Below, piece after piece: positions 15,788 through 64,000 of a DNA stretch of 64,000 nt. Location: NCBI GenBank assembly GCA_951802195.1, contig OX637627.1, positions 62,001 through 126,000 on the forward strand. Reading direction: 5' to 3'. The notes beneath the pieces are model-generated. The model did not search any database and was not told the origin of the DNA. It saw only the letters and a program-made list of their open reading frames with translations. Within the stretch, counting starts at the first letter, position 1. The number at the start of each line of letters is the position of its first letter. This DNA is from Tausonia pullulans (taxonomy: Eukaryota; Basidiomycota; Tremellomycetes; Cystofilobasidiales; Mrakiaceae). The translations under genes were made by a program, and so were the position numbers.

Positions 15788-18383
15788 CTAACTCGCTCCG
15801 TCCTCCTCTTTCGAGGCGATGAATGACTTGAGGAACCACTGCCAGACGACTGCAACCCACATCAACCCGAACGAAACCCAGACACCCTTCTCAAAGTACA
15901 GCTCGCAAGTGAGCCGATGGCTCGAAGCGTCGAGCTTGAGAACCGTGTCCTCGATCTCGAGCGGTGACAAGAGATCAGGGGTATTGTCGGTTGATGGGCT
16001 GCTGAGCGAATATGCGGTGCCTGAGATGGGGGCGGGGATGGCGGTGGAGGTGCTGGCGATGCGAGGGTGGGGAGGAGCGACGATGACAGGAATGTCGGGC
16101 CGCTGGGAAGAAATCTGCTCTGCCGTGAAAAACTGGCCATGAAGGCCGTATGGGACTATGGGGGAGGAGCACGTCAAGATACATAGCCGAAAGGAATAGT
16201 AAAATGACGACAAACCTCGTGAGGGGAGGTGAACTCGGGCGATGAGGGAGGAAGGGAATTCGGTGGAGGATGATGGAACGCCATCGCAGCCGATGAGGGA
16301 AGCATCAATGACCCAGACTTGCCCGTAAAAACCCGTGTCAACATGGTGATGTAGCGTGGTAGCATCATGCAAAAACTCACGCTCCGAGTGCGCCCCTTCT
16401 TTAACATCTCCCGTCTTTTCGTTAAGCCATGACCCTTCGTCGAACGCATAGCACACAAGCCAACCGTCGTCCTCCCTCCCGGGGAGGACCTCCCTGGCGA
16501 CTCGCTCCTCATCCGGGTTTACGAGCTCCCGACGCCACCCTTCTTTGGGGACGAAGGCAGGCTCCTGGCCATACCACCCGCGAGGGAAGCGAAAGACGCG
16601 GACAGCAAAGACTTGCTCTCTACCCTCTTCCTGATCAGCCAGAATCTTCGCCATGTTCCGCCCATCGACAACCTCGCCACGCCAATCGCCCGTAGCACCA
16701 CGGGCCGCGCCCTCCTGCACGAGAGCACGGACATCAACCTTGACGAGGCAGTCAATCTTAGCGCCTCCGCCAAGTCGGGCATCGAACCCTCCGTGGACCA
16801 TCGAGCAGCCGTACAGCCAGCGGGCGTCGTGCATCCCAAGACTTGGTGGCATAACGGGAAACTCGAAGGGGATCGCGAGAAGGGGGAAGCGGTGAGAGAT
16901 GATGTTGTGAGCCGGAGCGTTCGAGGGGAGATTGAAGCGGTAGAAGGTTAAAAGGCAGGAGTCCGTGGGGTTGGCTTCCTCTGGGAGAGGGGTGAGACCA
17001 CCAACGAGCGAGACGACGGAGGCCGTGCGAAAACGGCAGGCGAGGAGGTTGAATGCCGGCGGCGCGTCTGGCGTTGCCGGCGAGTCCCATGAGTTAGCGG
17101 TATCTGAAAGAGGGAATCTTTAGCGTAGGAGGCGAGAAAGGAAAGGTCTTTTCAAGCAAGTACTCACGGAAGATGCAGCAAGCCTCTGGGTCCTCGAACC
17201 ATCTGACGGCGCCAGACTCGGGCAAGCCGTCGTAGAGCCGTGGAAAGATGCCGAAACGAGAAGGCTGGTCGCGCTCAAAACGGATGACCGGCTGCATGCG
17301 GAGAAGATTGAGCGGAGAAAGTGAGAGCGGAAGATCGAGGATGCAGGTGTGAGTGAGGGAGGCGGAAAAGTCGTGCATCTGCGGGTGGCGCACGGAAGAG
17401 TTAGGCACGACTCCGGCTAGTGTTCGAAGGGAGCAAAGGGAGAGAGACACCATCTTGGGACCGTTCACACCGGGAATCGGCACCTGAAGGCATTTGGACT
17501 TCCCCTCGGGAGAAATGACGGAGTAATTAACGTAGGGAGGGTAGAAGGTCGATCCAAAGAGGACGAGGTCGCCCGTGAGTGGATCCGTCCTTGGGTGGGC
17601 GGTCGTCCACTCGTGGAAGAGCCGGCCCAGCATTGAGCTCTTCGATCCAATCCCCCTCGAACGCTTCCCTCTATCCTCGACAGCGCCTTCGAATGCCCAC
17701 CAGCCAACGGACTCGAGCCCGGGGAGGCGGACTTCCCAGGCTTTGCCGGACTCGCAGAGCGCCAACGCCCGGCCGTCGTGGAAGACAACGTTGGTATTGG
17801 CCACCGAGAGCCGAGCAACGCCAGAGAGGACGCAGAGGAAGATCGATCGAAATATGGCAAAGAGAGAGCTGAATATGGAACGAGCGAGGAGGAGGTCGGA
17901 GATTGATGGCACGATGGGCGAGTCGAGCCTGCGAGCACTCGGAGGGATCAGCTGCAGGTCCTTTCCTGACACGCGCTACCGCTTGCAATAGAACCGAGAC
18001 TCACGCTCTCCCAGAGAGATGAACGTCTGTGAGCATGAATTTGCTGACAAACTTGGGGACAACCTCGCCGGTGGGCATCTGATCGAAGAGAACGCCAGCG
18101 AGCTTGCCGTCGCCATCGAACCAGTGGTACGGCCCATTCTTGGCATTCTTCTCGCCTTTATCGTTGAAGTGGTGCTGTTGCTGGGGATTACTTCCGTTAC
18201 GGATGTACTGACCGCCGAGAAGCTCGGCTGGGATGTGGCCGGTGAAGGTGCAGGCGGTGAGATCGTGCTCTTCGGCGACGGGACGCTAAGTCACCCCGTC
18301 AGGGACAGATCGGTGGTCTCTCTAGCCGAAGAGCGAGGACGTACAAAGTTGCCCGCAAGGTAGGGATGGCTCCCAGCCGCCAT
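15788..18383 (-). CDS. Carotenoid cleavage oxygenase (RPE65/CCD family) with C-terminal membrane segment
   Basis: Non-heme iron enzyme expected to cleave a carotenoid or apocarotenoid double bond. The start at 18383 gives MAAGSHPYLAGNF, then a second exon with LLGGQYIRNGSNP and GPYHWFDGDGKLAGVLF, the classic N-terminal block. All four iron-ligand histidines can be placed: TAHPRTDPLTGDL, MHDFSASLTH, CCIFHTANSWDS (across an intron) and RVPYGLHGQFF (across an intron). The C-terminal 110 residues are extra to the usual fold and end with a hydrophobic segment, WVSFGLMWVAVVWQWFL, followed by KSFIASKEEDGAS. That suggests tail anchoring in a membrane. It is divergent from crtYB over 497 bp, so its substrate is probably a product of that pathway (beta-carotene, torulene or an apocarotenal). 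Family call is firm; substrate is inferred. Confidence 0.9.
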
Positions 18384-46569: not shown

Positions 46570-49500
46570 CTAAAGACCTCGAGTGAAGTCTCGTTTGGCA
46601 AGAAGAGCCTCGGCCGGGTTATCGCCGGCAGAAGGAAGATCGCGGGAAATGGCCCTGAAAGATCACAAGAGAAAAAGAGTCAGTGAAACCCTACGACGAT
46701 GGAAGGAGAGTCAGAACCCACCTCTCGCGGATCATGCCGATGAAGCGAAGCCGCTGCTTCCAGCTGGACATGTCATTGCCTCCCTGCGCAAATTGGGCGT
46801 AGACGCCCGACATAAGCACGCCCAAGAACGCCAGCTGCCGGACGAACGTCGGGAGCGAGGCCGCCGAGACAATTTTGAAGGCGCCGACGGGCCCAAAGTC
46901 CGGGACGCCGGGCGAGCGGTGGAGAACGACCTTGAAGTAGTTATGCTCGTCGGGGTCGTCATGCGTACGCGAGCTGCCGGCCGTGTGCGGGGAGATGACC
47001 TGTGAGGGGAAGAGTCAGCATGCGAAGCCCAGCCACCAACTTCCGCGCCTGCTTACAATGACTGAATGATGGAACGCCGTCTTGCACGTCTCCGGATCGT
47101 ACTTGTCTCCAGAGTCATTGAAGACGATGCAGGCAAACGAATTGCCGATTCCCTTGCGCTTATTGAGGTTTTGCTGGCCTGACTCGTCAACTCGGTTCGG
47201 CTGCAGTGTTGCGACGTGAAACGCAAGGATCGTCATATCGTCCCAAGCGGCATACGTGTATTCGCCGTTCTCGGCCGAGGGCGACGTGTCGAGGCCTGTC
47301 CGGATGTCGGTCTGGCCAAGGAGCTTGACGACGCGGCCAAGACCGTGGATGAAGCGCGTGTAATTTTGCGAGCCGTCCCTATTGTTGTAGATTTCCTCCT
47401 GGGTCGTCTGGCCAGGGCCAACGTAGAGAACGCCTATTGTGAAGAGGTCGACCGGAGGGTAGTTTGGGTCGAGGTTCTCCACGACCTTGAGGGACCACGC
47501 GTCCGTCACGAGCCGCGGAGGGTCGTCGGACCGCGACGGGTAGGGGAAGAACTGCTGGGCGACAAAGCTCGAGTCGATGAGGACCTCCTTTCGGCGCTGG
47601 GAGGGCGCCGTGCCAGACCACACAAGGTTGTGCGATGGGTCCGACTTGGCCGGTTCGTCGGGGACAGATCGGATCATGTCAGCGAGCTCCTTTTTAGAGA
47701 ACTGAAACAAGGTTTCAGCATCAGCGCCTCTTTGCAATAGGCATGCCAAATGGATCAGTCTCACCTCCTCTTCGTGTGGCCTCTCGCCTGCAAGAACAGC
47801 CGGTAGGGTGATGAGGTCCGGCTTCTCGTTGCCGAGCGCAATCAGCGGGATGTTTTCCAGTTTCACCATCATAGCGACCGTTCCCGAAGGCCGGAATGTA
47901 GAGACCCGACCCCATCCCGTCCGGCGGTTCATCCTTACGCGCACGACTGCGTCGCCCTGGACCCAATACTTGCGCTCAATGTCGCCAGACTCTTCGGCTC
48001 CCGGCCCCACTTCGGGCGGGAGGACGAGCTCGCCCAGGAAGGACCTCGCGGGCTTGGAGTCGGCGTTCGAATAGGCGTACCGGTGGAGGAAATCCATACA
48101 GACGTCCATCCGTGGGTCCTCCTCCTCGAGGTCCGGTTTAGCCGAAATCAGCTGCCTAAGGATGAAAGGCACGAGTTGGACGCGCTGGGTGAGGTCGAGA
48201 GCGAGGAACCACGGGTACATTACGAAGTACGCGAGCTGAAGCATGTGCTGTGAAAGGACGTGATCTGAGAGGTCCTTGTCCGGGCTCGTGTCGTTCGCCG
48301 AGTCGTGATGAATGCGGATGATGTGGAGCGCGACCGCAAAAACCGTCTCGAACTGCTCTGTTGTGAAGTTGGCGTACAGTTGCCGATTCTGGCTGACGGC
48401 GTAAATGAACTCAAGGATGTGGACTGAGAGTGAAACGTCCGAGGTGAGCGTCGAGAGCGTCTCCATAATGGCCGTGAGGTCCTTCGTAACGGCGAGCCGG
48501 AGGTGCTCAAGTGGGGCATTGGGTGAGCCCGTCCCGCCAACGGCCATTGTAACCATCGTCGTAAGCGCCTGGACGCACGCCCGGCCGGTCGTCGTGTCAT
48601 TAGAGGGCACGCCCACGTGGAAGGCGCGGACGAGCGCCGAGTGCTGCTGTTGGGAGAACTGGCGGTGGTAGCTGATGAGGACGTCCAGCGTCTGATAGGT
48701 CACCGCCTGAACCGCGGCCTTCTTCACGCCCGTCGGAAGCCGCGTGATGTACGGGAGCCGTCCGTTGGGGCCGAGCCACGCGCAGAGGCTGTCGACGAAC
48801 CGATGAAGGGACTGCTTGGACCGAGGGCCACAGAAAAAGTGCTGATTGACGAGCTGGAGCGGGAAGTAACACAGCACAAACGAGACGAGCTCCCAGTCGG
48901 TCTCCTCGGCAAGGACTTCGCCGATGACCTGGACATACTCCGAAACCGGGAGCCAGACACCCTGGGGCAGGATCGACTCGTCTCGAACGACAACGAATCG
49001 CCTCTGCGGGTCGAACGTGTTCATTGACGAGCTCGGCGCCGTCGACGTTGGGAGCTCAAACGCGACGGGATCCCCGTCATACCAGAGCGGCGTCTCGAGG
49101 ACAGACCGCGAGCCTCCAAGCTCGATCATTCGCGACCGACTCCGACTCGCATCACGCCGACCCGGCGCGCGGGACGAGTTGCGGCCGCGACCCTCGGTCT
49201 CATTGCCCTCGTTCCCCTGCTGCTGAGAGCCGCGCCCAGGTCGGCCCCGGCGCATCTCGGGGGCCTCAACCCCGCCACCGCCGTTGCCACCGCCGCTCGA
49301 ATGGGAAGCGGCAGCAGCAGCAGTCTCGCGGTGAGCAACAGATCGGCCAAGAAGCCCAGCGCCCGCGGAGACCTCGAGCTCGCGGGAGACAAGGGCGCGA
49401 TGCTGGGTGTCGGCACGGAGGTGGAGTAGCCAGCGAAGGAGATGAAGTCGAGCCCGCGGGCATGTCGCGTGAAGTCTCGGATGGTGCAGCTGGTCATTCG

Positions 49501-52500
49501 ACTTGCGAAGCGGTGAGCCGTCCCGGGCGCGACGCTCGGGCGGGTGAGGTCGGACGAGGTCGAGAATGTCGCGGAAGATGAGTATGGACCGTGAAGACGA
49601 CGCCGCAGCGCCTTGTTGAGTGCCTGTAGTAGTCGGAACGAAAGCGAGCCGGGTAAAGATGGAGATGAAGGCGAGCGCCGCACGAGGAGATCGGCAGGCG
49701 GAGTGCGCCATTAAAGCATGCAGGTGAGGAGGCGAGGGAGCCGCTGAGCGGTCGACGGGGCTTGCGGGCACGACAGTAGGCACTGCGCTGGCCGAAGTAC
49801 TGATGAACGCCGAGAGCGAGAGCTGCGGGAGATCGCGAAGGGACGAGTCTGGAGATTGAATTGATGACAGCGGGCTCATTGTCGGGCTCATCGTAGGCGA
49901 AAGGTCGGCAGTCGCCGGAGCACTGTTTCTGAGGCAGGGGCGAAAGACCGACTGTCAGCGGGAACTCTCTTCTACCTAGGTTAGACCAACGGCGGAAACT
50001 ACCCACGACCGCGGAAGCGTGCAGGTTGTCTCGGAGGCAATCTTGCGGAACAGATTTCGGATCCGATCAAACTCGCCGTAAGGGTCGTATGAGGCTTCGC
50101 CTGTGATCTCCTGCTCTTCCGAGAGGACGCTTATGCCCTCGTCGTCCATCTGGCGCGTTTCGAGGATCGCCGCATCAACGAGGACCGCGAGGGCAGCCTT
50201 CTCTATATCGGGCTCACGCTCCTTGTCGAGCGACTGCTCAAGCACGGGGAGGATGATGAGCCGGAGGACATCGGTGCGATCCTCATTGACATTCTTCGTC
50301 CGAGGCCAGACCTCATTGAAGAGAAGGTCGGCCATTCGCTTGCGCACACTCGGCGGGTGCGTGCCGAGGCCATTCGGAGCCGGGTGGTAAAAGGCCTTGA
50401 CGAGGCGCGAGAGGTTGTTGAGCCACTCAGGGTGGAAGGGCAAGCACGTGTTCTCATCCCGGTAGTGATCAATCACGAAGAGCGAGACGAGCTCGGACGA
50501 ATTGGCTGCAAGATCGAGAACGAGCGAGGCCTGGCGCCGGGGGAGTCGAAGGGGAGCCTCGCCCGCATCTCCGCTATTGTTCTGTTGGACGTATGTCCAC
50601 AACCGGCGGGGGAGCGTACGGTTGATGTGACCGTAGAGCTCCTGGAGCGAGAGCTCGGACGTATCGGTCGCCGACGGATTGGAGGAAAGCTCCCTGGCGC
50701 GCTTGAGCAGGAATGGCTTGCCGTCGCTTTGCCTATGGGGTAGAAGGGCAGAGAGGGATCTGTCAGCAAAGGAAGTAGAGGCAAAAATCGGCTCCTCGAC
50801 GCACCTCGCTCCGTCAATCCACGCCTTGGCGTCCTCAAGCACAGTGACGATGGTCTCGCCCTCACCGAGGACGTTGTCCATGCCCTCCTTCTTAGCGTCC
50901 TCGAGAATGGTCTCAAGCACGCGGAGGACCTCAAGGTCGACGGGCATCCAACGCTGGCGGATCTCCTCCGAACAGCCCGTGCACCGATTGCAAGCCATCG
51001 CCGATCGGAGCTGGCCGCCATAGCTATCAAGCTGGAACTCCTTGAGCGGCAACTCCCGCTGCTGAGACGCCGCCGCCGCCGCCGCCTTCTGTACGCCCCC
51101 AAGGGACGCAACCGAGCTCGTCAGATCGACCGTAGCGGCCTGCTGGGCCTCAGCGGCAATCTTCCGTCGCTCGGCGTAGGCGTACGCGAGTATGAGCCGG
51201 ATCGCACAGACGCCACCTCGGACGACACCGATCTCCCACCGGGAGCTTTCCCCCCATTCCTCGCTGCGGGCCTTGATCTCAAAACCAGAGCCGGCGAGGG
51301 TGGCTTTGAGGGCGAGCTTGAACTTGTCGCTGAGATCCTTGCGGAAAAGATCCATGACGATCGGCCAGGCGCATCGCTCTGTTTCACCGCCGAGGCTGAG
51401 CATGCCGAAGAGGAGTCGGGCCGAGGGGCCAACAGTGCCGGGGGGAACGGACCAAGCCTTGGCGAGGACACCGAAAAAGCGGACGAAGCTGGAGCACAAA
51501 GGGTGGACGGGAATCGCCGAGGCCGTGTGGGGCGCGAGAGGAGCCGTGAATGAGTAAGTCGTAAAAGAAGCTGACCTGGTGGAGGACGCCGGCGAGAACG
51601 GCTGAGGTTGTTGGCCACCTCCAGCTCGATCCGCCGCTGGTGTCAAGGACGACGCGATGGTAGATGGAGGGTTGCTGACACTGCCACCAGAAGCCGCTCC
51701 AGCAGCAGCAGCCTTGGACGAGGAATTCGTGGAATGCGCCGAGACCGTCGTCCCAGACCGGGACAGCGTGACAGGGCTGCTGTACGAAGTAGACGTCGTC
51801 GGTAGAGCCTTGCGCGAGACTGAGGGCGACCGCGAGACGTTCACAACGGAGGAGGCCGTCGAAGGGGCACTCGGACCAAAGAGGTTGCTCACTCGGCCAC
51901 GAGAGGCCTGCTGATGGGCTTCGCGGAGCGTTTCAAACGTGCCGTGGACGTCACTATATGTGCCCCCTCCCCCTCGGCCAGCAGAGGTGTCCGAGTCGCG
52001 GCGAGCATCCCCGACGTATGAAGACGAACAGTCGTCCTCGGGCCCACCGGTGACGGAGAAGGCGGCGGCGGAGGCGAGCGAGGTGTCGAGACCGTGCCAG
52101 GCGAGGCGGGCAAAGAGCGCCAGGATCTGAGCCAGGTCTGAGGATGTGAAGTGCGAGCTTCGGGTGCGGACAAGAAGCTCAAAGAGGGAGAGCGAGGCGA
52201 GGAGCGGCGGAAGACTCGCCTCGGTAGGCTGCTGATGGTGTGGGAGCTAGGGGTGAAAGATCAGGGTAATGATCAGTTTCTTGCAACATTGATACGACAT
52301 CAAAGCCGGTCTCACCGTCTCGATGGCCGCTCCGGCCGACTCGATAAGCCAGGCGCGCTCGAGCTCCTGCTGCCAAAGCCTGAGCTCGCCGACAATCTCG
52401 CTCCATTCAGCCCATCCATCCCAGGCACTCGACTCGCCGAAAAGTCCTCCGGGAAGATCGTCCTCCTTCTCTTTGTTCTCGTCGTCCCGCTCCCGCATCT

Positions 52501-54119
52501 CGCCCGCGACGAGCGCGCGGAGACCAGCAATCCGTGCCTCGAGGTCTTCAATACCTGCACCAGGCAGACGGTTGACGAGCACGCGGAGGAACGAGCTTAG
52601 GTCGGAGGCTACCAGGTCTGTCGAGAGGAGGTTGCCGCTCGCCGTCAGGAAGGCAGCGAGCAGGCGAAATCCGGCAATCCGGACAGGAGTCGGCGCCGAT
52701 GGGTGGCCGAGCGACGTCGAGATCTTGAGAATGACAGCAGGGAGGTTCCCGGGCGTTGTCGCTGGGTAGATCGAGCTCATTGGGATAGGCCGACTTAGCG
52801 GACCCTGCGATGACACCGCTGCCAACGTCGACGGAGGGTCAGCGCCCGAGAAGAGCGGGGCGGTATGGACTTCTGGGCTCGTCGGGGCCGTGGCCACGAA
52901 GAGCTCCTCGTACGAGCTCGCACGGGTGATCCGGCCGTGGAGGGCGGTCGCGTATAGCTCAATGCTCTTGGCTTCGCGCCATCGGTGGGAAGGGTCGCTG
53001 TTCGCAGCGTCAGCGAGGACGTCGAGGATTCCCCAGACGAGGTTCTGAGTTGGGATCCGATCGAAGAGGCTCCCTTGCTCGGCCTCGGACTCTTCCGCGG
53101 GGGTGAGGAGCGTCGGTGGCTGGGAAGATGCTCTGGCGTGGCGTGTCGTCCCGGAGGATCCCGGCTGAGACGACGAGGCGCGTGTCGACCCTGCCAACGA
53201 CGCCGACGACGATTGGTCGAGGTTGCTCCGGGGTTTAGTCGTCGAGACCGAGGGTGTCTTGCGGCCACCAAGGAGGTTGGAAAAGAACGAGCCTGTCAAG
53301 CAAAAGGTGGGAAACACATGTCAGAATTGACGGGTTCTGATTAAATGACAAGCGACGGATGACGAAGGCCTGAAGCGGGTCGCATCGAGTCTCCTTGGAC
53401 CAGGAAGGGCGCGAGAGAAGGCCAGCATGGGAAAACAGCGGGTAAAACTCTCCATGTATGCCTCTTCGTCACTCTCTCTAGGCCGAAACCCCAGTACTCC
53501 TTGCCCTCCCGTCTCCTGCACATCCCCCTCGCCTCGGCGGCGGCCGCCCTTCGTTTCAGCCTCTCCCTCCGCCTTTCCCCTCCGCCCTTCCCCTCCGCTC
53601 TGCTCATCCCGATCCCCGACAGGGTGAGCCTGCATGCTCGTGTGCATCCTCAAGCTCCGCCTAAGAAGATGGCGGCGCTCTTGGACTTCGAGCAAGCAAG
53701 CGGGGGACGCGTGCTCTGACGCAACGCTTGTTGTCTCTCTTGGTCTTTCTCCCTCGCTCTCTGTCTCTTAACTCTGTTCCTCCTCCCTCGAGACGCACGT
53801 TGAACGCGCCACCCATCCGGCCTGCCCGCGCTCCTCTTCCCTCTCTACTCGCCTCTCCTTCCCCAGATCAAGCAAGCCATCCAGCCAGCTAGCCAGCTGA
53901 CCGACTGTCAAGAGGAAGGCCCTTCCATCCCAGCCCAAATCCTAACGCAACGGAGCAAGAGCTGAACTCACCTCGCGTGTGGCCTTCGGCCGTCACGACC
54001 GGTTCCACTTTTGGGATGCTGACAGCAGTCGTGGTGGAAGATCCAGCGGCACCTAACGGCGACGAACCAGATGACGGTTCGCGGTCGCGATCACGCGCGC
54101 TGGAAGGGGACACGGACAT
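46570..54119 (-). CDS. TSC2: Tuberin (TSC2) homologue with Rap/Rheb-GAP domain
   Basis: GTPase-activating subunit of the TSC complex that switches off Rheb and so restrains TORC1. The largest gene here, about 2,100-2,200 residues. Exon 1 starts MSVSPSSARDRDREPSSG at 54119, ends GHTR, and joins across a 679-bp intron (53293-53971) to GSFFSNLLGGRKTPS. The helical-repeat N-terminal region includes RIPTQNLVWGILDVLADAAN and continues through exons to about 50 kb (VRGGVCAIRLILAYAYAERR, VDLEVLRVLETILEDAKKEG). The tuberin middle domain lies at about 48-49 kb (LEFIYAVSQNRQLYANFTTE). The GAP domain is at 47.0-47.5 kb: SQNYTRFIHGLGRVVKLLG, YTYAAWDDMTILAFHVAT and KGIGNSFACIVFNDSGDKYD. The last carries the asparagine thumb of the family (GN-F). 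A final exon ends AKRDFTRGL at 46570. Its usual partner TSC1 is not in this window. Confidence 0.9.
53293..53971 (-). other. Unusually long first intron of TSC2 (679 bp)
   Basis: Donor GTGAGT at 53971 and acceptor ACAG at 53293, joining G and GC into a glycine codon so the frame is kept. Most introns in this window are about 50-110 bp. It may hide a regulatory element or a small alternative exon; I recognised neither. Confidence 0.7.
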
Positions 54120-54980
54120 GGAAGGCGGGGGTGGAATCCTGGGCGTGTCTTCGTTCGTGCGGATCAAAGAAAGGGAGATGTGGGGGGGATTGAGCGAAGG
54201 AGACGACGCCAATGAATGATGGTTGAGCAGACGCGCGGAAGTCGAGGTCGAGGTTGTTAGGGAGAGAGGAAGGGAAGCGGAGGAGCAAGGGTGAACGGAA
54301 GGGAAGGACGGCCCGCTGTGCGGGGTGGAGGTCAGCCCCGGTCGGTGATTCGATTCGAAGTGGAGGCATTAGAGAATGGAAGCTGCAAGCCGGCAGTCCA
54401 GGCGGGCATGCGCTTGTGGCAGCTCATCGGCTCTTTATCTTTCTCTCCAATGATAGAGGTCTCTATCCGAGCTTGGACTCTCTCTTGCGTGGAATAGGGA
54501 TTCGTGGCGGAGATGCGGGGTTTCTACTCACGGCGGGCCTGCTTCCTTGCCTCGATCGCTCGCTCATTTGCTAGCCCATGTTGGGTAGGACCTTGCTTCT
54601 GACGCTGCTGGCTCTTCGCAGAGACTAGTGAATGAACATGTAAGATGAAGACGAATGTGTGAGTTTGGGCGGATCAACGGCGCAACGTACAGCGCGCAAC
54701 ATCCATGACCCGACCTAAGGACGAACTCAAAACTTCTGCCGAAGGAGCCATGAGAAGCATGAAGGATGGACGCAACCAGGCATCGACATATTGGGAAAGA
54801 CGTTGGCAAGGATAAGAGAGGATCGATGAAGAGTGGCGTAGACCCTCGCGTCGAGCGAGAATGGGAGATCTACAAACTTGGGAAGTAACGACGAAACGGA
54901 AAAAGGAATAAAGATCTTCCGTTGGAGTGTGAGGGGATGAATAGCTAGGCGGGTTGGGAGGGAGGGAGCTACGAGGCTGC
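54120..54980. other. Intergenic region, TSC2 promoter and cellulase A 3' end
   Basis: 861 bp between two minus-strand genes. The 250 bp next to the TSC2 start is open in two frames but lacks an in-frame ATG continuous with it. The remainder, from about 54500, looks like ordinary spacer. No gene was recognised. Confidence 0.5.
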
Positions 54981-57687
54981 TTAGTTGCCGAGGAGGACCT
55001 TTTGGAAGGTGGCCTTGCACTCTGAACAGAAGAGGAGGCGCGCCGATCAGCGAAATTGATGCCTGTGTCTCAAAATGCTGAACACAAGACGATAGGAACT
55101 AACCGTTGTTCTGACGGTCGCAGTCTCCGACAGTCCACTCGCGGTTGCCGTTGCGGTTGGCAGCGTCGGCGCAGAGCTGCATGAGGACGTGGATCAGTAC
55201 GGTTGCTTCAAGACATGAGTCTTCGATGGACACACGTTGTGCTGCTTGTCGCAGGACTTGTCAAGAGCACCCCAGAGGTCCAGGGTGGTCTCATCGCCGA
55301 CGATGTAGCCGCGGCCTCCCTCTGGAAACACGTGGGGCAATAGCAGATTCAGATGAGTGTGACAAAGAACAAATGGGGTCTTGGAGTTGGCCATGCTCTA
55401 ACACATGCTAGGCGCTGGGGGAGAATTACTACTGGGAGTGGGTAATCATCGACTCACCAGTGACAGAGATAGCGTAGATTCCTCCGAGGTTACCCGTGAA
55501 CGGCTGGAAGCCGAGGTCAGAAGCTGATCCAGTGGACTCTGGGGCAGCGGACGAGACGGTCGACGAAGGCTTCTCGAGAGTTTGCGAGGTTGTAAGCTCC
55601 TGAGAAACCTCGGAAGAGGAAGGGGCGGGCTCAGTGGTGATGGGAGCCTCAGTGGTGATGGGAGCCTCGGTGGTCGTCGGGGCGGTGGTGACGGGATCGG
55701 AAGTGATAGGAGCGTCGGTCGTAGTCGGCGCTGGCTCATCTGAGCTCGAAGGAGTTCCAGTGGTCACAGGCTCCTCGGGGATTTCAGTAGAAGAGACCGG
55801 CTTCTCGGAAGTGGTAGGCTCAGGAACGACGTCCGAGGTAGTGGGCTCCAGAACAATAAAGGTGGTCGAAGACGCGGGCTCCTCAGTGGAAGGAGTCGAG
55901 ATGGTAGGTTCAGGAACGACATCGGACGTAGTAGGGGCAGGCTTCACTGCGGTAGTCGTAGGAGCGGGGATGCTGGACGACGCCGGGGTGGAAGAAGAAG
56001 TCACGGCAGACGACACGGGCGCGGGGCTGCATCCGAAGTCGTCGCCATGTCAGTAAGCAAGTTCAGAGCATGCCCCAACTACGGTGACTCACCCAGAAGT
56101 GCCCGGGAAGTTGGGAATGACGGCTTTGATGGCCATCTCGTTGTCGGTTTCTCCGTTGGGGACAATGTTGAGGACGTAGCTGTTGTCAAACGCGCCGGCC
56201 TGGAGAAAAGAAGGTCAGTCTCTCACAACATAGCGTTCCAACTCACTTCTCACAAAATACTCACCGACCACACGGTGTATCCAGCGATGGTCTCAGGGAC
56301 AGACTTGATGTAGGCGAGCTGCTCTCCAAGCTTGGTGATGCAGTCGGCATTGTTGAAGGCCGCTCCGGTCTCAGAGACGATGGCCTGACGGCCCTTGGAC
56401 TTGAGGTAGGAGCTGAGCTGCTGGAACTGCGGTGGTGGGTCAGCTTTGCTGTTCTTTTAGATCACGTGCTCGACCAAGGTAGGAGACTAACGAGAGCGAC
56501 GTTGTTGGTCGTGCAAGATCCCTGGGTTCCCGACCCGTCAGAGTCGAGGTACTGGTGGATGTCGAGGAGGAGCTTGGACTGGTCGGCACCGGTGTCCTTG
56601 ACTCCATCAATGAGAATCTGGCCGTTCTTGTTCATCATCTCGGTGGCATGGGTCCAGTCGTTTCCAGGGAGGAGGATGAACTGGCTGGTGGCGCCGGCGG
56701 AGCGGATAGCAGTGACAGCGGCCTGGAGAGCCTTGACGAAGGCTCCGTAGTCGGTCATGTCGTCTGTACCATAGCAATGAAGGGGCTCTCAGCAACCTCC
56801 GAAATGCAAACACGGGAGGTGAAAGACGTACGAGGCTCGTTCATGAGACCAAAGATAATGCGCGCCTCGCCAGCATACTTCTTAGCAAGCTGAGACCAGA
56901 GGTTGGCAAAGTCGGCAGCAGGGACCTCAGTTCCGACCTGCTTGCTCTCGAAGCGAGCGTAGTTGTGGAGATCGAGGATAACATAGGTGCCGGACGAAGC
57001 CTTGAGGGCGGTCTGAACTTGGTTGTCGAGCTTGGCGCTGGAGGCACGGAGACGCTCGTCAGACGGGCAAGAGAGCACGAAAGCAATGCCAGACGCACAA
57101 AAAGTCAGCCTTGATGGCCCCTCCAGGGGTGCCAGTGAGGTACTGCCAGCCGAAGGGAATGCGGAAGAGGTTGGCACCCTTCGAGCTGAACAGCGGGGGA
57201 ATATGATCAGTCTTGACCCCAGAGGACTAAAGCAGAGCGTAAAACAAGACCTACGCGAAGTGAGTGACTGATAACAGCAGAGCGATTCTATCAGCAGCTG
57301 AAAAGCTCGTTCGAGTATGAGGAGATGGCAGAGCGGACGTACTCTGAGCCGACGGGGGCTCGACGAAGGCGCCCTCGGACCAGCCCCTGAGAAAGCGGAG
57401 TTTGCGTGATCAGTATCAGGGACTCGTTTGATCTCTCGAGAGCGGCCGCTCTCCTTGCGCTTTCGTTGACTTACCAAACAGACATGCCGAAGTCGAGGCC
57501 GGCGACTGAGAAAGAGAGGGAAGGATGTTCGTCAATGCGAGAATTCTGGCAAAGACACAGTGGAAAACTGACTGTTGACACCTCCGAGTTGAGGGAGAGT
57601 CGCACGTTTCGACTGTCGAACGGGGACCGGTCGGGCGGACGCAAGGAGCGACGTAGCCGCAAGGAGAGAGAGGAAGGGGACGAGCAT
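54981..57687 (-). CDS. Secreted GH5 endoglucanase A with long linker and Cys-rich C-terminal domain
   Basis: Predicted beta-1,4-endoglucanase. Exon 1 (start 57687) is a signal peptide, MLVPFLSLLAATSLLASA, followed by a Kex2-like KR site (VRQSKRATLPQ). The catalytic domain reads GGVNIAGLDFGMSVWGWS, ANLFRIPFGWQYL, GTYVILDLHNYARF, the acid/base glutamate in IFGLMNEPR, LLPGNDWTHA, LLDIHQYLDSDGSGTQ, the nucleophile glutamate in QAIVSETGAAF and ETIAGYTVWS. This fits GH5, probably the subfamily 5 cellulases of fungi. It is followed by a Ser/Thr/Pro linker of about 150 residues, then a domain with GGIYAISVTG, EGGRGYIVGDETTLDLWGAL, DKSCDKQHNLCADAANRNG and VGDCDRQNNECKATF. The paired CDxQHNxCAD and CDxQNxxC motifs occur at the ends of other secreted fungal proteins, role unknown. 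The core is identical to copy B. Confidence 0.9.
55631..55666 (-). repeat. 18-bp tandem repeat in the cellulase A linker
   Basis: Two perfect 18-bp copies (55631-55648, 55649-55666) encoding Thr-Glu-Ala-Pro-Ile-Thr units. The linker also repeats the unit TTSDVVPEPT twice, so it seems to have grown by local duplication. Confidence 0.85.
56131..57514 (-). repeat. 1,384-bp tract identical to 60053-61436 (copy A)
   Basis: Direct comparison with copy B at a constant offset of 3,922 bp found no mismatch in the lines compared and no net indel. The tract covers coding exons and introns of the cellulase catalytic domain. It begins within the codons after EMA near the end of the catalytic exon and stops 9 bp inside intron 1. 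Confidence 0.92.
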
Positions 57688-59455
57688 GGTGCGTTGAGAG
57701 GGAAGAAGAAAGAAGGGAGGTTGGGGGGAGTGTGCAATAGAGCTGAGTTGACGAAACAAGGGAGTGTGAGAGCCGGATAGGCAGACGGGGGGACAAAACT
57801 GGAGAAGGAGAAGAGAGTGAGGGAGGGGAAGGAAAGGGAAAGAGTAGATGGAGGATGAAAGATGGAAGAAAGAGAAGAATCGGGCCAAGATAAAGGATCA
57901 GCATAGCTCGCTACCCCTTTTTGCGCCACCTATTCACAAGGGCCACGTTGTGAGACCCACGTGTAAAACGCACGCGTCAGGGGTCGGAACCGGCGTGAAG
58001 AGGGAGGAACAGGAAGGAGCAGAGGGCATTCAAGTAGGGGATCGGCGGCAATTATAAACACACAGGAGGCCTTCCCCTTGCTATCAGGGACGTACGAGGG
58101 GTGGCTTCGTGACCTCTTTCCTGATCATACGTGATGGTTGACTGTGAAAAGGACCAGAGCGGAGAGAGGAGGTTTCGAGTTGGCTCCCGGGGCTCTGGAC
58201 TACGAAGTCAGGGTGAAAGCGCGCGCACATCGTGATCTGAGCCTCATTCTCTCTTATCTGTCTGGGCTCTGTCGGGAAAAGTTATGCGTTAGCGGAAAAC
58301 TATGGCAGTAAGTTGACAGTGGGCTTGTCGGGGTGTTCTGTGCTTAGCCTCAGGGAAGTGCCCAGGATTAGCCAAGGCGGAAAGAAGCTCGAGCGAAAAC
58401 ATGAGCAGAGTTGTAGCCGTTACACCCACAAACACCGCCCGGTTCCTTGCCCATCATCTCCTCGAGTCCCTTCCAGGGACAAGAAGTGCCTGAATCGATG
58501 AACACCCAGAGATCAATAAAAAGTGAGCGAAGTGGCGAAGGAGAGTTGTCTGAACGAGCGTGAGCAGAAAGGCTGAACCACTAGCAGAAGTCTCAGAAGC
58601 AATGATACTATCGATTGAGGGAGATATTTAAAGGCTATAACGTCATTTCTCTGGCAACTTCAAGCGGGGTTACATCCGAAACATACGAAACGATGAGCCC
58701 GAGGGGGCTGGCTACAGCTGAAAGTACCGACTGCGTGCCGGCAAGGGACGATGCTCTAGTCTTCATCGAATCCAACGTCATCAAGCAAAATCGGGTCAAT
58801 AGATGAAGAAGCTGCACCCAATCTACGCACGTCTGCCAACGACTTCAAGCTGCGCGGTGGGTGACTATGAACATGCCGGAGCCGTGTCTGCAAGGCCGCA
58901 CTAGAGCCGAGAACTCGCCACTTCGCCGGGACTTGATCTATGTAGAGTTCCTTCCCCAAAACACCTCGTGACCAGACAATCGAGATACCATGATGCTGGA
59001 CAGCAAGTTCCTGTACGTAAGTGCCGAAAACACGAAGTTTGAGACGCATGTTGGGCTTGCATCAGTCGCGAGCCGGGCCGCGTGCAGTGGCCGGGCCGGC
59101 CATTACTGCATGTTCGCTCTACGGTTCTTGCGCGACGAGGGCCAGCAGAGATTTACTTGTCAGATGAAAGTGATGAGAGACGCGACCGGGCATCGATTTG
59201 AACAGAAAAGGACGAACGCAGATCCCTCGCGTCAAGCAAGGGGAAACTGCGAGCTTGGACGGATACGGAAAACTACGGACGGGGCCGAAGCAAAGAAATG
59301 TCTGCCATCACTGGGATGGGGGGTTGGGGGTTGGGGGGGGGGGGGGGGGGGGGGGGCAAGGATGATGAGGGAATGGAGGGGGAGGAAGCCCCAGAGGAGA
59401 GAGAGAGGGGGGCAAAGGGAAGAACCGCGACGACAAGGTGAAGGTCAACGCAAAT
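57688..59455. other. Intergenic region, cellulase A promoter and cellulase B 3' end
   Basis: About 1.77 kb. The sequence just before the cellulase A start has patches matching the same part of cellulase B, for example GTGTGAGAGCCGGATAGGCA at 57764 and 61712, and ATCGGCGGCAAT near 58041 and 61937. A possible TATA element (TTTATAAT on the minus strand) lies near 58055. A minus open frame at 58756-59049 was not recognised. A G-rich block is at 59313-59356. Confidence 0.5.
59333..59356. repeat. 24-nt G homopolymer
   Basis: A run of 24 G preceded by shorter G runs (from 59313), about 100 bp beyond the cellulase B stop codon, in its 3' flank. The pattern could fold as a G-quadruplex and is also a place where assemblies often err. 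Confidence 0.9.
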
Positions 59456-61608
59456 CTACTGGAGGCACTGCGAGTACCAGTCATTGCTCTTGACGCAGCG
59501 CCAGCCAGAGGCGCAGTTCTGCAAAGGATGAAATAAAATGAGACGTGAGTTCAGGCTTTCGGCTTTAGATGAGCAAGAATCTTCTCTGGGCACTTACGGT
59601 GGGTCCGGTGAAGCCGGCTCCTCCGCACTGGGCCCAGGGACCAGCAGTCGCACCTCCAGAAGAGGCCTTGGTCTGGGAGTAAAAGGACCCAGAAGAAAGA
59701 ATTAGCAGACAATTAAGATGAGTGAAGGATATGACTAGAGACTGAGACTGACGGTCGAGGCGGCAGCGGCGGACGTGGTGATCTGGGTAGCGACGACGGG
59801 CTTCGAAGTCGTGGTAGCGGCAGCCTTGATCGAGGTGGTCGAGGTCTTGGGAGTGACGACGGACACGGCAGCCTTCGAGGTAGAGGTGACAGCGGCCGCC
59901 GTGGAAGAGGTGGAGGTGACCTGCTTGGACGTGACAACAGGGGAAGATCTGAGCAGTAGCGGGGTCCGTCAGCAACGGCCGCCCAATCCTGCTCGCCAAG
60001 CAGATATAACCTACCCAGACTTGGCAGGGAAGTTGGGAATGACGGCCTGGGCGGCCATCTCGTTGTCGGTTTCTCCGTTGGGGACAATGTTGAGGACGTA
60101 GCTGTTGTCAAACGCGCCGGCCTGGAGAAAAGAAGGTCAGTCTCTCACAACATAGCGTTCCAACTCACTTCTCACAAAATACTCACCGACCACACGGTGT
60201 ATCCAGCGATGGTCTCAGGGACAGACTTGATGTAGGCGAGCTGCTCTCCAAGCTTGGTGATGCAGTCGGCATTGTTGAAGGCCGCTCCGGTCTCAGAGAC
60301 GATGGCCTGACGGCCCTTGGACTTGAGGTAGGAGCTGAGCTGCTGGAACTGCGGTGGTGGGTCAGCTTTGCTGTTCTTTTAGATCACGTGCTCGACCAAG
60401 GTAGGAGACTAACGAGAGCGACGTTGTTGGTCGTGCAAGATCCCTGGGTTCCCGACCCGTCAGAGTCGAGGTACTGGTGGATGTCGAGGAGGAGCTTGGA
60501 CTGGTCGGCACCGGTGTCCTTGACTCCATCAATGAGAATCTGGCCGTTCTTGTTCATCATCTCGGTGGCATGGGTCCAGTCGTTTCCAGGGAGGAGGATG
60601 AACTGGCTGGTGGCGCCGGCGGAGCGGATAGCAGTGACAGCGGCCTGGAGAGCCTTGACGAAGGCTCCGTAGTCGGTCATGTCGTCTGTACCATAGCAAT
60701 GAAGGGGCTCTCAGCAACCTCCGAAATGCAAACACGGGAGGTGAAAGACGTACGAGGCTCGTTCATGAGACCAAAGATAATGCGCGCCTCGCCAGCATAC
60801 TTCTTAGCAAGCTGAGACCAGAGGTTGGCAAAGTCGGCAGCAGGGACCTCAGTTCCGACCTGCTTGCTCTCGAAGCGAGCGTAGTTGTGGAGATCGAGGA
60901 TAACATAGGTGCCGGACGAAGCCTTGAGGGCGGTCTGAACTTGGTTGTCGAGCTTGGCGCTGGAGGCACGGAGACGCTCGTCAGACGGGCAAGAGAGCAC
61001 GAAAGCAATGCCAGACGCACAAAAAGTCAGCCTTGATGGCCCCTCCAGGGGTGCCAGTGAGGTACTGCCAGCCGAAGGGAATGCGGAAGAGGTTGGCACC
61101 CTTCGAGCTGAACAGCGGGGGAATATGATCAGTCTTGACCCCAGAGGACTAAAGCAGAGCGTAAAACAAGACCTACGCGAAGTGAGTGACTGATAACAGC
61201 AGAGCGATTCTATCAGCAGCTGAAAAGCTCGTTCGAGTATGAGGAGATGGCAGAGCGGACGTACTCTGAGCCGACGGGGGCTCGACGAAGGCGCCCTCGG
61301 ACCAGCCCCTGAGAAAGCGGAGTTTGCGTGATCAGTATCAGGGACTCGTTTGATCTCTCGAGAGCGGCCGCTCTCCTTGCGCTTTCGTTGACTTACCAAA
61401 CAGACATGCCGAAGTCGAGGCCGGCGACTGAGAAAGGGAGGGAAGGACGACCATCACTCTCCGATTCTGGGACGGAAAAGGGTGTTCTTTGGACTCACTG
61501 TTGACCCCTCCGAGCTGGGGAAGTGTGGAACGCTTGGTGGGAACAGGACGAGCCGAGGCGAGGAGGGAGGTGGCCGCAAGGACCAGGGTGAAGAATGGGG
61601 CAAGCATT
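59456..61608 (-). CDS. Secreted GH5 endoglucanase B with C-terminal cellulose-binding module (CBM1)
   Basis: Predicted secreted beta-1,4-endoglucanase. Exon 1 from 61608 is a signal peptide, MLAPFFTLVLAATSLLASA, followed by a KR processing site (VPTKRSTLPQ); it differs in detail from copy A. The catalytic domain (residues about 35-345) is the same as in A, with the acid/base Glu in LMNEPR and the nucleophile in VSETGAAF. A short Ser/Thr/Ala/Val linker (about 70 residues) follows, then a fungal CBM1: GPWAQCGGAGFTGPT, NCASGWRCVKSNDWYSQCLQ, with its four cysteines and the aromatic residues that stack on cellulose. It stops with TAG at 59456. Total is about 430-450 residues. It reads in the same direction as A, 1.77 kb upstream of A's start. 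Very likely an active cellulase that grips crystalline cellulose. Confidence 0.93.
60053..61436 (-). repeat. 1,384-bp tract identical to 56131-57514 (copy B)
   Basis: Partner of the tract in cellulase A. Directly outside it the two genes differ at once: the codons after EMA encode IKA in A and AQA in B, and intron 1 differs from its tenth base onward. Confidence 0.92.
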
Positions 61609-63009
61609 TTGCTAGAAGGGGGTGTTGGACTGGTGAGAGGTTGGGGGGGAGGAAGAGTAGGAGGGAAAGGGCTGCGAAGTGAAGTGCAAGACTTGACGTA
61701 ACGACGAGAGAGTGTGAGAGCCGGATAGGCAGTGAGAGGGATGCAAGGACAGGAACGAGAACGAGAGACGAGCGGGAGAAAAGGGATGAAGATGGTGGTT
61801 GGAGTCAGGACATCATCCGAGAGTTCGCCTCTTTTTATCCGCCTGTCGGAACAGAACTCACACGTGTGAATCATCATGACAGGGAACAGGATCGCGTGAA
61901 GAAGAGAGGGGGAGGGAGGGACCTGCCAGGGGAGATATCGGCGGCAATGGAAAGGAGGGCTAGGAAGGGGCAATTCGGAGGGAATCGGTGATGGCCAGAG
62001 CCTTGCCTTAGGGGCTCATTCCCCTGTCTGTCTCGGGTAGAAGAGGAGCAAGAGGAGGGAAAGAAGGAAGGGCGATCCGGAGGTCGCTGACCCTTTCACT
62101 ACTGTGAGTAAGGGTGATGGCCGTCGCGTTTGAAGGATGGATGGCCAACGATGACGAGGGACAGCTCCTGTCAAGGGGCCAGGAAGAAGATCAGGCATGG
62201 GCCAGGCTCAATCTTGCCCCTGGGGTTCCACGTGAATCTGAAGAAGGGATTAAGTTTTTTTTTTATATTCCCTGAACTCCGTCCTGGGCCCATAGGAAGA
62301 AGGGCCCGACGCCAGTCACGATGGGCTCCTGTTTCTAGCTCGAAACGCGACTACGTCCAGCCAGAAACCCCTTCAAGCTTTCATAGGTGGCCTCCGTGGC
62401 CTCCAAATGGAGAAAAGAGGAGAAAGCTCGACTAGTATGCTCCCTTTCCTCACTCTCTTTCCAAAATAGTCCTTCTCACTCCTCGTCAAAGTCAGCTGAC
62501 GGATCCAAGCAAAGAGAAGAAGGAAAGAAGTCGCGAAAATCTCTTTCCCTGCCAGATCAAAACCGCCAATCTCTCCCTTCCCTGCACCTGACGTGCTTTC
62601 CAGTTCTCAGTTAGGATCTGATTCCACTCATGTCTGAAGAATACGGCTCCCGGACTTTGAGGATGAGGGCTGTACTCGTCCGCCCTCGCTCCCCCAGGAA
62701 ATTGGAAAAGACGTGGGTCGCCATGTTGTCTGCAGATTGGCGTAGATCGGTGGTGGGATCAGCTCGGTCGTGCAGCGTGCTTCATGACGGCTGTGGGCGA
62801 TACTCACTTTCCGAGTTCGCTTTCGGGAGAATATTGCTTACTCAATTGACGTCGAAGGGCTGGGCCTGAGAAACGCAAAAGAGATACGCATCAGTCGTCA
62901 ATCATCAAGGTCTGGCGAACGTAGAAGCAGCTCATTGAATGGCCTGAACTCGCCGACTCAACCGCAAAGCCAACGAGCATGGTCGGCAGCATCGTAAATT
63001 AAAAAAAGC
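61609..63009. other. Intergenic region, cellulase B promoter
   Basis: About 1.4 kb. The first 350 bp shares scattered patches with the cellulase A promoter. The rest, including a T-run at about 62255, shows no gene I recognise. Open frames at 62130-62435 and 62630-62869 have no known domain and no codon bias like the neighbours. Confidence 0.5.
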
Positions 63010-63690
63010 TATTGGCCAAGCTTAGCGATGTAGTCGTCGTTTTGGGAGCCGCTCCGGTCTCTAAGACGATGACCTGACGACCATTCGGACGAGGTAGGTG
63101 TTGAGCTTCTTCAAATGAAGGCGCATCTCAGCATAATCCGTCTTGTTCAAGACCTACGATACTGCGCTTATATTAGGATATCAACGAACAATATCGACGT
63201 TGTGGTTAAAGCAATAACACTGGTTCCTGAACCGTCAGAGTCGAGATGCTAGTGGATTTCAAGGAGAAGCTTGCACTGATCCGACTTGGTGCCCTGGACG
63301 CCACTTCAGAGCAAGCTTCATTCGCGTTCTGTAGCACGAAGAAAAAAAATCAGGACGGGAGCCTAATCGAGGCGAAATAACTGCAACTGAAGTCGTTCAC
63401 AATCATCTGCTCTTCTGGATCCAGCCTTTCCAGGAAGGAAGATGGACTGGCTGGTGGCACCGAGGGTCCATATCTCGGTGACGTTGACGTGAAGGGTCTG
63501 GACAAGGCCTTTATAGTTGGGATATCGTCTTAGATGTGACGGACAGGGCCCACGACTCTGAAGGATCCGCTCAAGGATGACTTTGTGTTTTACGACGTAC
63601 GAGGCTCATTCATGAGCAGATACGACGCGATCTGAAAGGCCCTACTTTTTGGCTACTTGAAACCAAAGTTTGGCAAACTGGAAAAGAACA
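63010..63690 (-). pseudogene. Decayed third GH5 cellulase copy
   Basis: Matches the catalytic part of cellulases A and B in the same order and strand but is clearly diverged. Recognisable blocks are those for the nucleophile strand (reads IVLETGA instead of IVSETGA, near 63060), DSDGSGT (near 63235), the PGND region (near 63420-63470), and LMNEPR (near 63600-63620). In the block equal to DIHQYLDSDG, the Gln codon has become a TAG stop at 63249-63251, and the spacing between blocks is disturbed by insertions near 63310-63400. The match fades out near 63690. No signal-peptide exon or C-terminal module was found, and it may continue past the right edge. It is older than the A/B tract, since it differs in most codons. 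Confidence 0.8.
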
Positions 63691-64000
63691 GACGTATCAG
63701 CTGTAATGTCAACCTTCTATCGAAATGATAGAAGAGGTGTCTCGAGTTCTGACTGGAAATGTCACCGCTTCCGCTAAATTCGACTTGATTTCTGTTGAAA
63801 CGGGCTGGAGGCAACAAAATAGATATAGTGGGAGAGACTGGATCTCTCGAGCCCAAAATGGGCATCGATCAAGGAAGGAGGCGGGATCGCTAGTCATAAG
63901 AGGGCGCAGGCCGAGCTGGGCTGTCAACTCAGCGTTGACACTGGAAGATGCGGGTCGACAGGTGATCCGGCGTTCTGGCTCCTGATAGCACCTCAAAAAA
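63691..64000. other. Unassigned right edge
   Basis: 310 bp beyond the decayed GH5 copy. Open on both strands in places (plus 63725-63985, minus 63709-63996) but with no domain I recognise and no clear match to the N-terminal part of the cellulases. Confidence 0.4.

Follow-up and report, generated by a model that had tools for sequence, protein, structure and literature searches.

Ectopic gene conversion between paralogues has been described in both fungi and animals, and two of the described systems come closest to the one considered here. In Aspergillus flavus and Aspergillus oryzae, ectopic conversion is reported between nearby paralogues that are near-identical, including their introns (PMC12844118), and in the copepod Tigriopus the gene pair GOT1p1/GOT1p2 is reported to combine parts of high similarity with parts of high divergence, a mosaic ascribed to conversion (PMC3728101). 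Here we describe two tandem cellulase genes, A and B, in the genome of the basidiomycete Tausonia pullulans (assembly GCA_951802195.1; 23.86 Mb, 21 contigs), located within a 64,000-nucleotide stretch of contig 8 (OX637627.1, positions 62001-126000, forward strand), hereafter the window. The two genes share an identical tract of 1,384 base pairs (bp) that coincides with the catalytic domain, flanked on both sides by homologous but strongly diverged sequence, and a recent ectopic (interlocus) conversion of this core between two old tandem paralogues is, in our view, very probably the cause. The main elements, in window coordinates, are as follows.

54981..57687, minus strand: gene A, 13 exons, 601 amino acids, with a GH5 domain, a long Ser/Thr/Pro linker and a C-terminal PF27672-like module
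59456..61607, minus strand: gene B, 12 exons, 454 amino acids, with a GH5 domain, a linker and a C-terminal CBM1
56131..57514, minus strand: putatively converted tract, gene A copy, running from 9 bp before the end of intron 1 through the EMA codons in exon 9
60053..61436, minus strand: putatively converted tract, gene B copy, identical to the A copy

Both gene models were drawn up by hand on the basis of splice sites, and no stop is met on reading through either of them. Both products pass the curated cut-off (23.5 bits) for the GH5 cellulase family PF00150, A with 161.5 bits (E 3.8e-47, residues 45-313) and B with 162.5 bits (E 1.8e-47), and we model them as intact, spliced fungal GH5 endoglucanases. 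The closest solved relatives of the shared core by sequence are fungal GH5 endoglucanases of the EG-II type, PDB entries 5d8w and 3qr3, matched at E 7.9e-70 and E 2.2e-67, respectively, with residues 1-340 of B as the query.

As to the tract, the initial annotation had proposed an identical core of 1,384 bp at a fixed offset of 3,922 bp, with no difference even in the introns and with sharp limits on both sides, and direct alignment bears this out: 56131-57514 and 60053-61436 agree in 1384 of 1384 bases, with no mismatch scattered anywhere between the ends, and the match is not extendable by one base, a mismatch bounding it on each side. According to the hand-set gene models, the tract is composed of 884 exonic and 500 intronic bases and includes seven complete introns; it starts inside intron 1, 9 bp before exon 2 (57506-57514 in A), and ends in exon 9, directly past the EMA codons. 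At the same offset, 50-bp windows fully outside the tract are only 0.12-0.42 identical, and the window has no other exact repeat of at least 30 bp on the same strand. The whole-genome DNA search, which scores best candidates only, returned 100% matches to the tract at the A and B places only, the four remaining matches being of 47-288 bp and 70-88% identity. As the introns and the silent sites are identical along with the coding sequence, selection on the protein is excluded as the cause. The tract GC content (0.566) gives no signal of GC-biased conversion when compared to the four 1-kb flanks (0.546-0.592) and the window (0.591), and no Rfam match at gathering scores was found in 53500-64000.

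Identity of this kind could in principle be written by an assembler or a polisher, the cores truly differing and one consensus having been placed into both, and it is generally known that polishers can remove true differences where repeats are near-identical; the tract also exceeds short-read length. We consider such an error improbable, however, as there is no N in the window nor in 135,528 bases, partly overlapping, from the examined loci, the contig spans 1.35 Mb, the four flanks are mutually different, and a third 100% place is absent from the genome according to the DNA search mentioned above. Moreover, polishing would only hide a few differences, and only in near-identical copies, so conversion would still be needed.

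The sequences on either side of the tract tell a different story, and the elements compared are these.

57573..57687, minus strand: exon 1 of A, a signal-peptide-like start, homologous to exon 1 of B, with silent sites strongly diverged
61499..61607, minus strand: exon 1 of B, the counterpart of A exon 1 by gene model and exon 1 comparison
56093..56130, minus strand: the part of A exon 9 beyond the tract, with 60015-60052 as its homologue
60015..60052, minus strand: remainder of B exon 9 outside the tract, aligned to the A remainder

The flanks are far from equally identical: exon 1 agrees in merely 75 of 102 nucleotides, with 17 of 25 four-fold sites differing, and the exon 9 remainders differ in 8 of 38 nucleotides (counted by hand on the alignment), their 27-nucleotide coding part being identical in 22 of 27 with one of four four-fold sites differing. 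Taken together, four-fold sites differ at 0 of 153 positions inside the tract versus 18 of 29 outside (Fisher p 1.1e-17), and the silent sites outside look saturated. Introns 1 and 9 sit at corresponding places in A and B. The sequence of intron 9 is at background, 240 of 500 shuffles scoring as high as the actual pair. For intron 1, none of 500 shuffles is as good when the intron is taken nearly whole, and 2 of 1000 are when the last 9 bp are removed; with the last 22 or 25 bp removed, 162 and 105 of 1000 are as good, and, as the likeness disappears upon this trimming, we place it in the roughly 13 bp of the splice-acceptor region that adjoin the tract. By the same method, non-homologous intron pairs (72 pairs) are on average 54% and at most 64% identical. 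Since A and B have exon 1, the last part of exon 9 and the placement of introns 1 and 9 in common, they are paralogous beyond the tract, and, judged from these alignments, the flanks are homologous for a short stretch, but old. The earlier description of exon 1, 5' flanks, intron 1, linkers and C-terminal modules as diverged overlooked that the flanks remain homologous for a short way.

The pair presents two of the features by which conversion is recognized, a near-identical tract between diverged homologous flanks on both sides, and identity that covers introns and silent sites. As the flanks are diverged on either side, a simple recent duplication is disfavored, and so is one unequal crossover. 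Tandem paralogues on the same strand can recombine by unequal crossing-over, but one crossover swaps all of one side and alters the copy number, and it cannot leave an identical block between two differing flanks, while a double exchange amounts to conversion; we give this explanation almost no weight. An older duplication followed by a recent conversion limited to the core, as originally proposed, is favored instead, by the contrast at four-fold sites and by an intron 9 that has drifted to background.

Beyond the shared core the two proteins end in different modules.

54981..55551, minus strand: C-terminal module of A, residues about 505-601, four exons in part, recognized by tail homology
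59474..59639, minus strand: CBM1 of B, split over two exons, PF00734 at residues 421-449, seen as two half matches

The C-terminal modules had been taken for diverged copies of each other, and this does not hold, as they belong to different families, CBM1 in B and a PF27672-like module in A. The CBM1 passes its cut-off of 20.6 bits with 52.7 bits (E 3.9e-14). The A tail, when compared pairwise and with filters off to the nine tails labeled PF27672 among the best 120 of 465 protein matches (from Filobasidium, three from Kwoniella, Cryptococcus depauperatus, Cryptotrichosporon, Cutaneotrichosporon and two other sources), is 35.8-44.4% identical to them (E 9.5e-18 to 9.1e-12). The Pfam scan reported no family for the A tail, and, as it also failed to report PF27672 for three proteins carrying that label, the model seems to be missing from the Pfam copy used. 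A search of the protein database with the A tail gave nothing at E 0.001 (29 candidates), and a search of PDB chains gave no match up to E 1. The labeled proteins (Filobasidium, Kwoniella and others), which share 42-50% identity with B over the matched region, have the same order as gene A, with GH5 followed by a linker and the homologous tail. Among these best 120 matches, no species named for the PF27672 tail has both tail types. In the T. pullulans genome, a search with the A tail (six candidates scored) found a related sequence outside gene A on contig 7 only, with 56% identity over 73 aligned positions in a piece joined by hand, the closest in the genome. That locus (near 975 kb; L031, 1156-3162) has an A-tail-like domain, then a Ser/Thr/Pro-rich stretch, then a DPBB domain of the kind seen in expansin-like proteins (PF03330, E 7.6e-10), with reading frames that run on from one to the next in what may be one transcript. 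As the module thus stands next to a cellulase in one case and, apparently, next to an expansin-like domain in the other, it is plausibly a carbohydrate-binding module.

This search also bears on another scenario, in which a recent full-length tandem duplication was followed by replacement of both ends of one copy from an older paralogue. Such a history would yield the same mosaic, but it requires two independent replacements, 5' and 3', and the only sequence resembling the A tail that this search (six candidates scored) found outside gene A is the one on contig 7, apparently by a DPBB domain; we regard this scenario as highly improbable.

Two further GH5 paralogues, D and E, are unlinked to A and B, and the models of both were spliced by hand. 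Paralogue D, on contig 3 (L011, 4133-6362), has GH5 and CBM1, that is, a tail of the B type, and more core introns than A and B. Paralogue E, on contig 15 (L010), has GH5 with another tail, acidic and ending in a basic stretch. A tree of the cores was built by a quick method from 45 rows, 42 proteins hand-picked from the best 120 matches plus three cores from this genome. In this tree A/B groups with D (Shimodaira-Hasegawa-like approximate likelihood ratio test, SH-aLRT, 99) and then with E (97), forming a lineage of its own that is positioned next to enzymes of the PF27672-tailed kind (SH-aLRT 91).

The events behind the mosaic can be pictured as follows. The core of one paralogue would have been damaged, and repair would have copied the other paralogue, so that 1,384 bp, reaching from the end of intron 1 into exon 9, were overwritten. 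This block would approximate the whole stretch over which A and B were still able to pair, limited on the 5' side by the drifted intron 1, and on the 3' side by 38 nucleotides of exon followed by a drifted intron and different linkers. The outcome would be a pair of enzymes that share an identical catalytic domain but differ in their tails. What is observed directly is the identity with its sharp ends, the diverged but homologous flanks and the different modules; that a repair took place, that it was recent, and why it stopped where it did are inferred from this mosaic. As to recency, zero differences in 1384 bp place the 95% upper bound on tract divergence at 0.22%. With the rate of about 3e-10 substitutions per site per division reported for Zymoseptoria tritici (PMC8497519), which may not be the rate of T. 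pullulans, a hand calculation over two lineages suggests an age of less than about 3.6 million cell divisions. As to direction, the core tree does not tell A from B as the original owner of the core. Third-position GC, which is 0.782 in the core, 0.766 in the B tail and 0.68 in the A tail, slightly favors a transfer from B to A, as does the presence of CBM1 in D, both being weak indications.

Several observations weigh against the account of a single recent conversion between old paralogues. The ends show slight feathering: directly beyond the 5' end, 11 of 13 bp agree (counted by hand), and outside the 3' end six bases with four mismatches are followed by 20 identical bp. More than one conversion event is therefore possible, and the likeness hints weakly at earlier exchanges that extended a little farther. 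The exon 1 protein sequences of A and B are identical at 29 of 34 positions, versus 24 of 32 and 20 of 32 in comparisons with D, but the exon 1 silent sites place A and B no nearer to each other than to D (four-fold differences from D being 9 of 21 for A and 8 of 17 for B), and thus they give no firm date for the A/B split. The case also rests on one genome, the GH5 homologues among the best 120 of 465 matches being at most 52% identical.

The feathered ends also bear on a variant of the preferred explanation that overlaps with it, a long-running concerted evolution by repeated conversions since the duplication, from which the gene ends escaped. An identical core beside diverged flanks fits repeated and single events equally, and the short stretches next to the tract exceed the likeness found farther out. 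These pieces, however, are short and in part constrained, as splice-acceptor region or coding sequence, and one recent event is enough, so we hold this variant to be a serious but lesser possibility. A bolder version, which we find rather unlikely but worth stating, is that conversion is recurrent and in effect modular, maintaining one shared catalytic engine while the tails (CBM1 versus PF27672-like) and promoters evolve freely, because the catalytic block alone is still able to pair.

Other sequences at this locus also deserve mention.

63016..63677, minus strand: gene C, a decayed third tandem GH5 copy with no open frame, from blastn pieces and tblastn
57762..57784, minus strand: 23-bp island in the 5' leader of A, identical to the island in B
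61710..61732, minus strand: 23-bp island in the 5' leader of B, identical to the island in A, the surrounding leaders being diverged

The initial annotation had treated the tandem family as two copies. Gene C, located upstream of B so that the array reads C-B-A in transcription order, enlarges it: three blastn pieces are 70-85% identical, and tblastn reveals stops and frame breaks. A 19-base part of the island occurs exactly at these two places in the genome only, with three more places showing two mismatches, and the island could either be an element of the leader or promoter under constraint or be left over from an older exchange. Elsewhere in the window, 47018-49954 (minus strand) is a tuberin/Rap-GAP (TSC2-like) exon matched by 14 proteins, the best (P0121, source 'lgn') with 99% identity over 92% and the rest with at most 53%, and 15791-17119 (minus strand) is an open frame matching the carotenoid-oxygenase-like RPE65 family (PF03055, E 2.5e-18).

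What makes A and B noteworthy is that the homogenized block coincides with the catalytic domain and the tails remain different. Trees of cellulases commonly use the catalytic domain to infer the timing of gain and loss of binding modules. Here such a tree would mislead, the cores seeming freshly duplicated and the gene ends being old. If conversion is indeed recurrent and modular, as in the bolder version above, its restriction to the core could make the trees of catalytic domains and of binding modules independent of each other, and it could explain why CBM1 seems to have been gained and lost repeatedly among fungal GH5 enzymes. The two genes also present a natural enzyme pair with identical GH5 and different tails, useful for testing the role of each tail.

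A fungal cellulase pair of this kind was not found, by title or abstract opening, among the matches listed in a search of the open-licence literature. The solved relatives 5d8w and 3qr3 are chains of single enzymes with no tandem identical partner mentioned, unlike A and B. The GOT1p1/GOT1p2 pair (PMC3728101) resembles A/B in combining similar and diverged parts in one pair, but it is an animal gene supported by population data, and the abstract is silent on an exchange of binding modules. The Aspergillus case (PMC12844118) is similar in that neighboring fungal paralogues are nearly identical, introns included, but, as reported, it involves a comparison of two species, whole genes and gene splitting, whereas A/B presents, in one genome, a block bounded within the gene, at the catalytic core. 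The mechanism of gene conversion is thus already known and is textbook matter, and the A/B pair is an unusually clean case of it.

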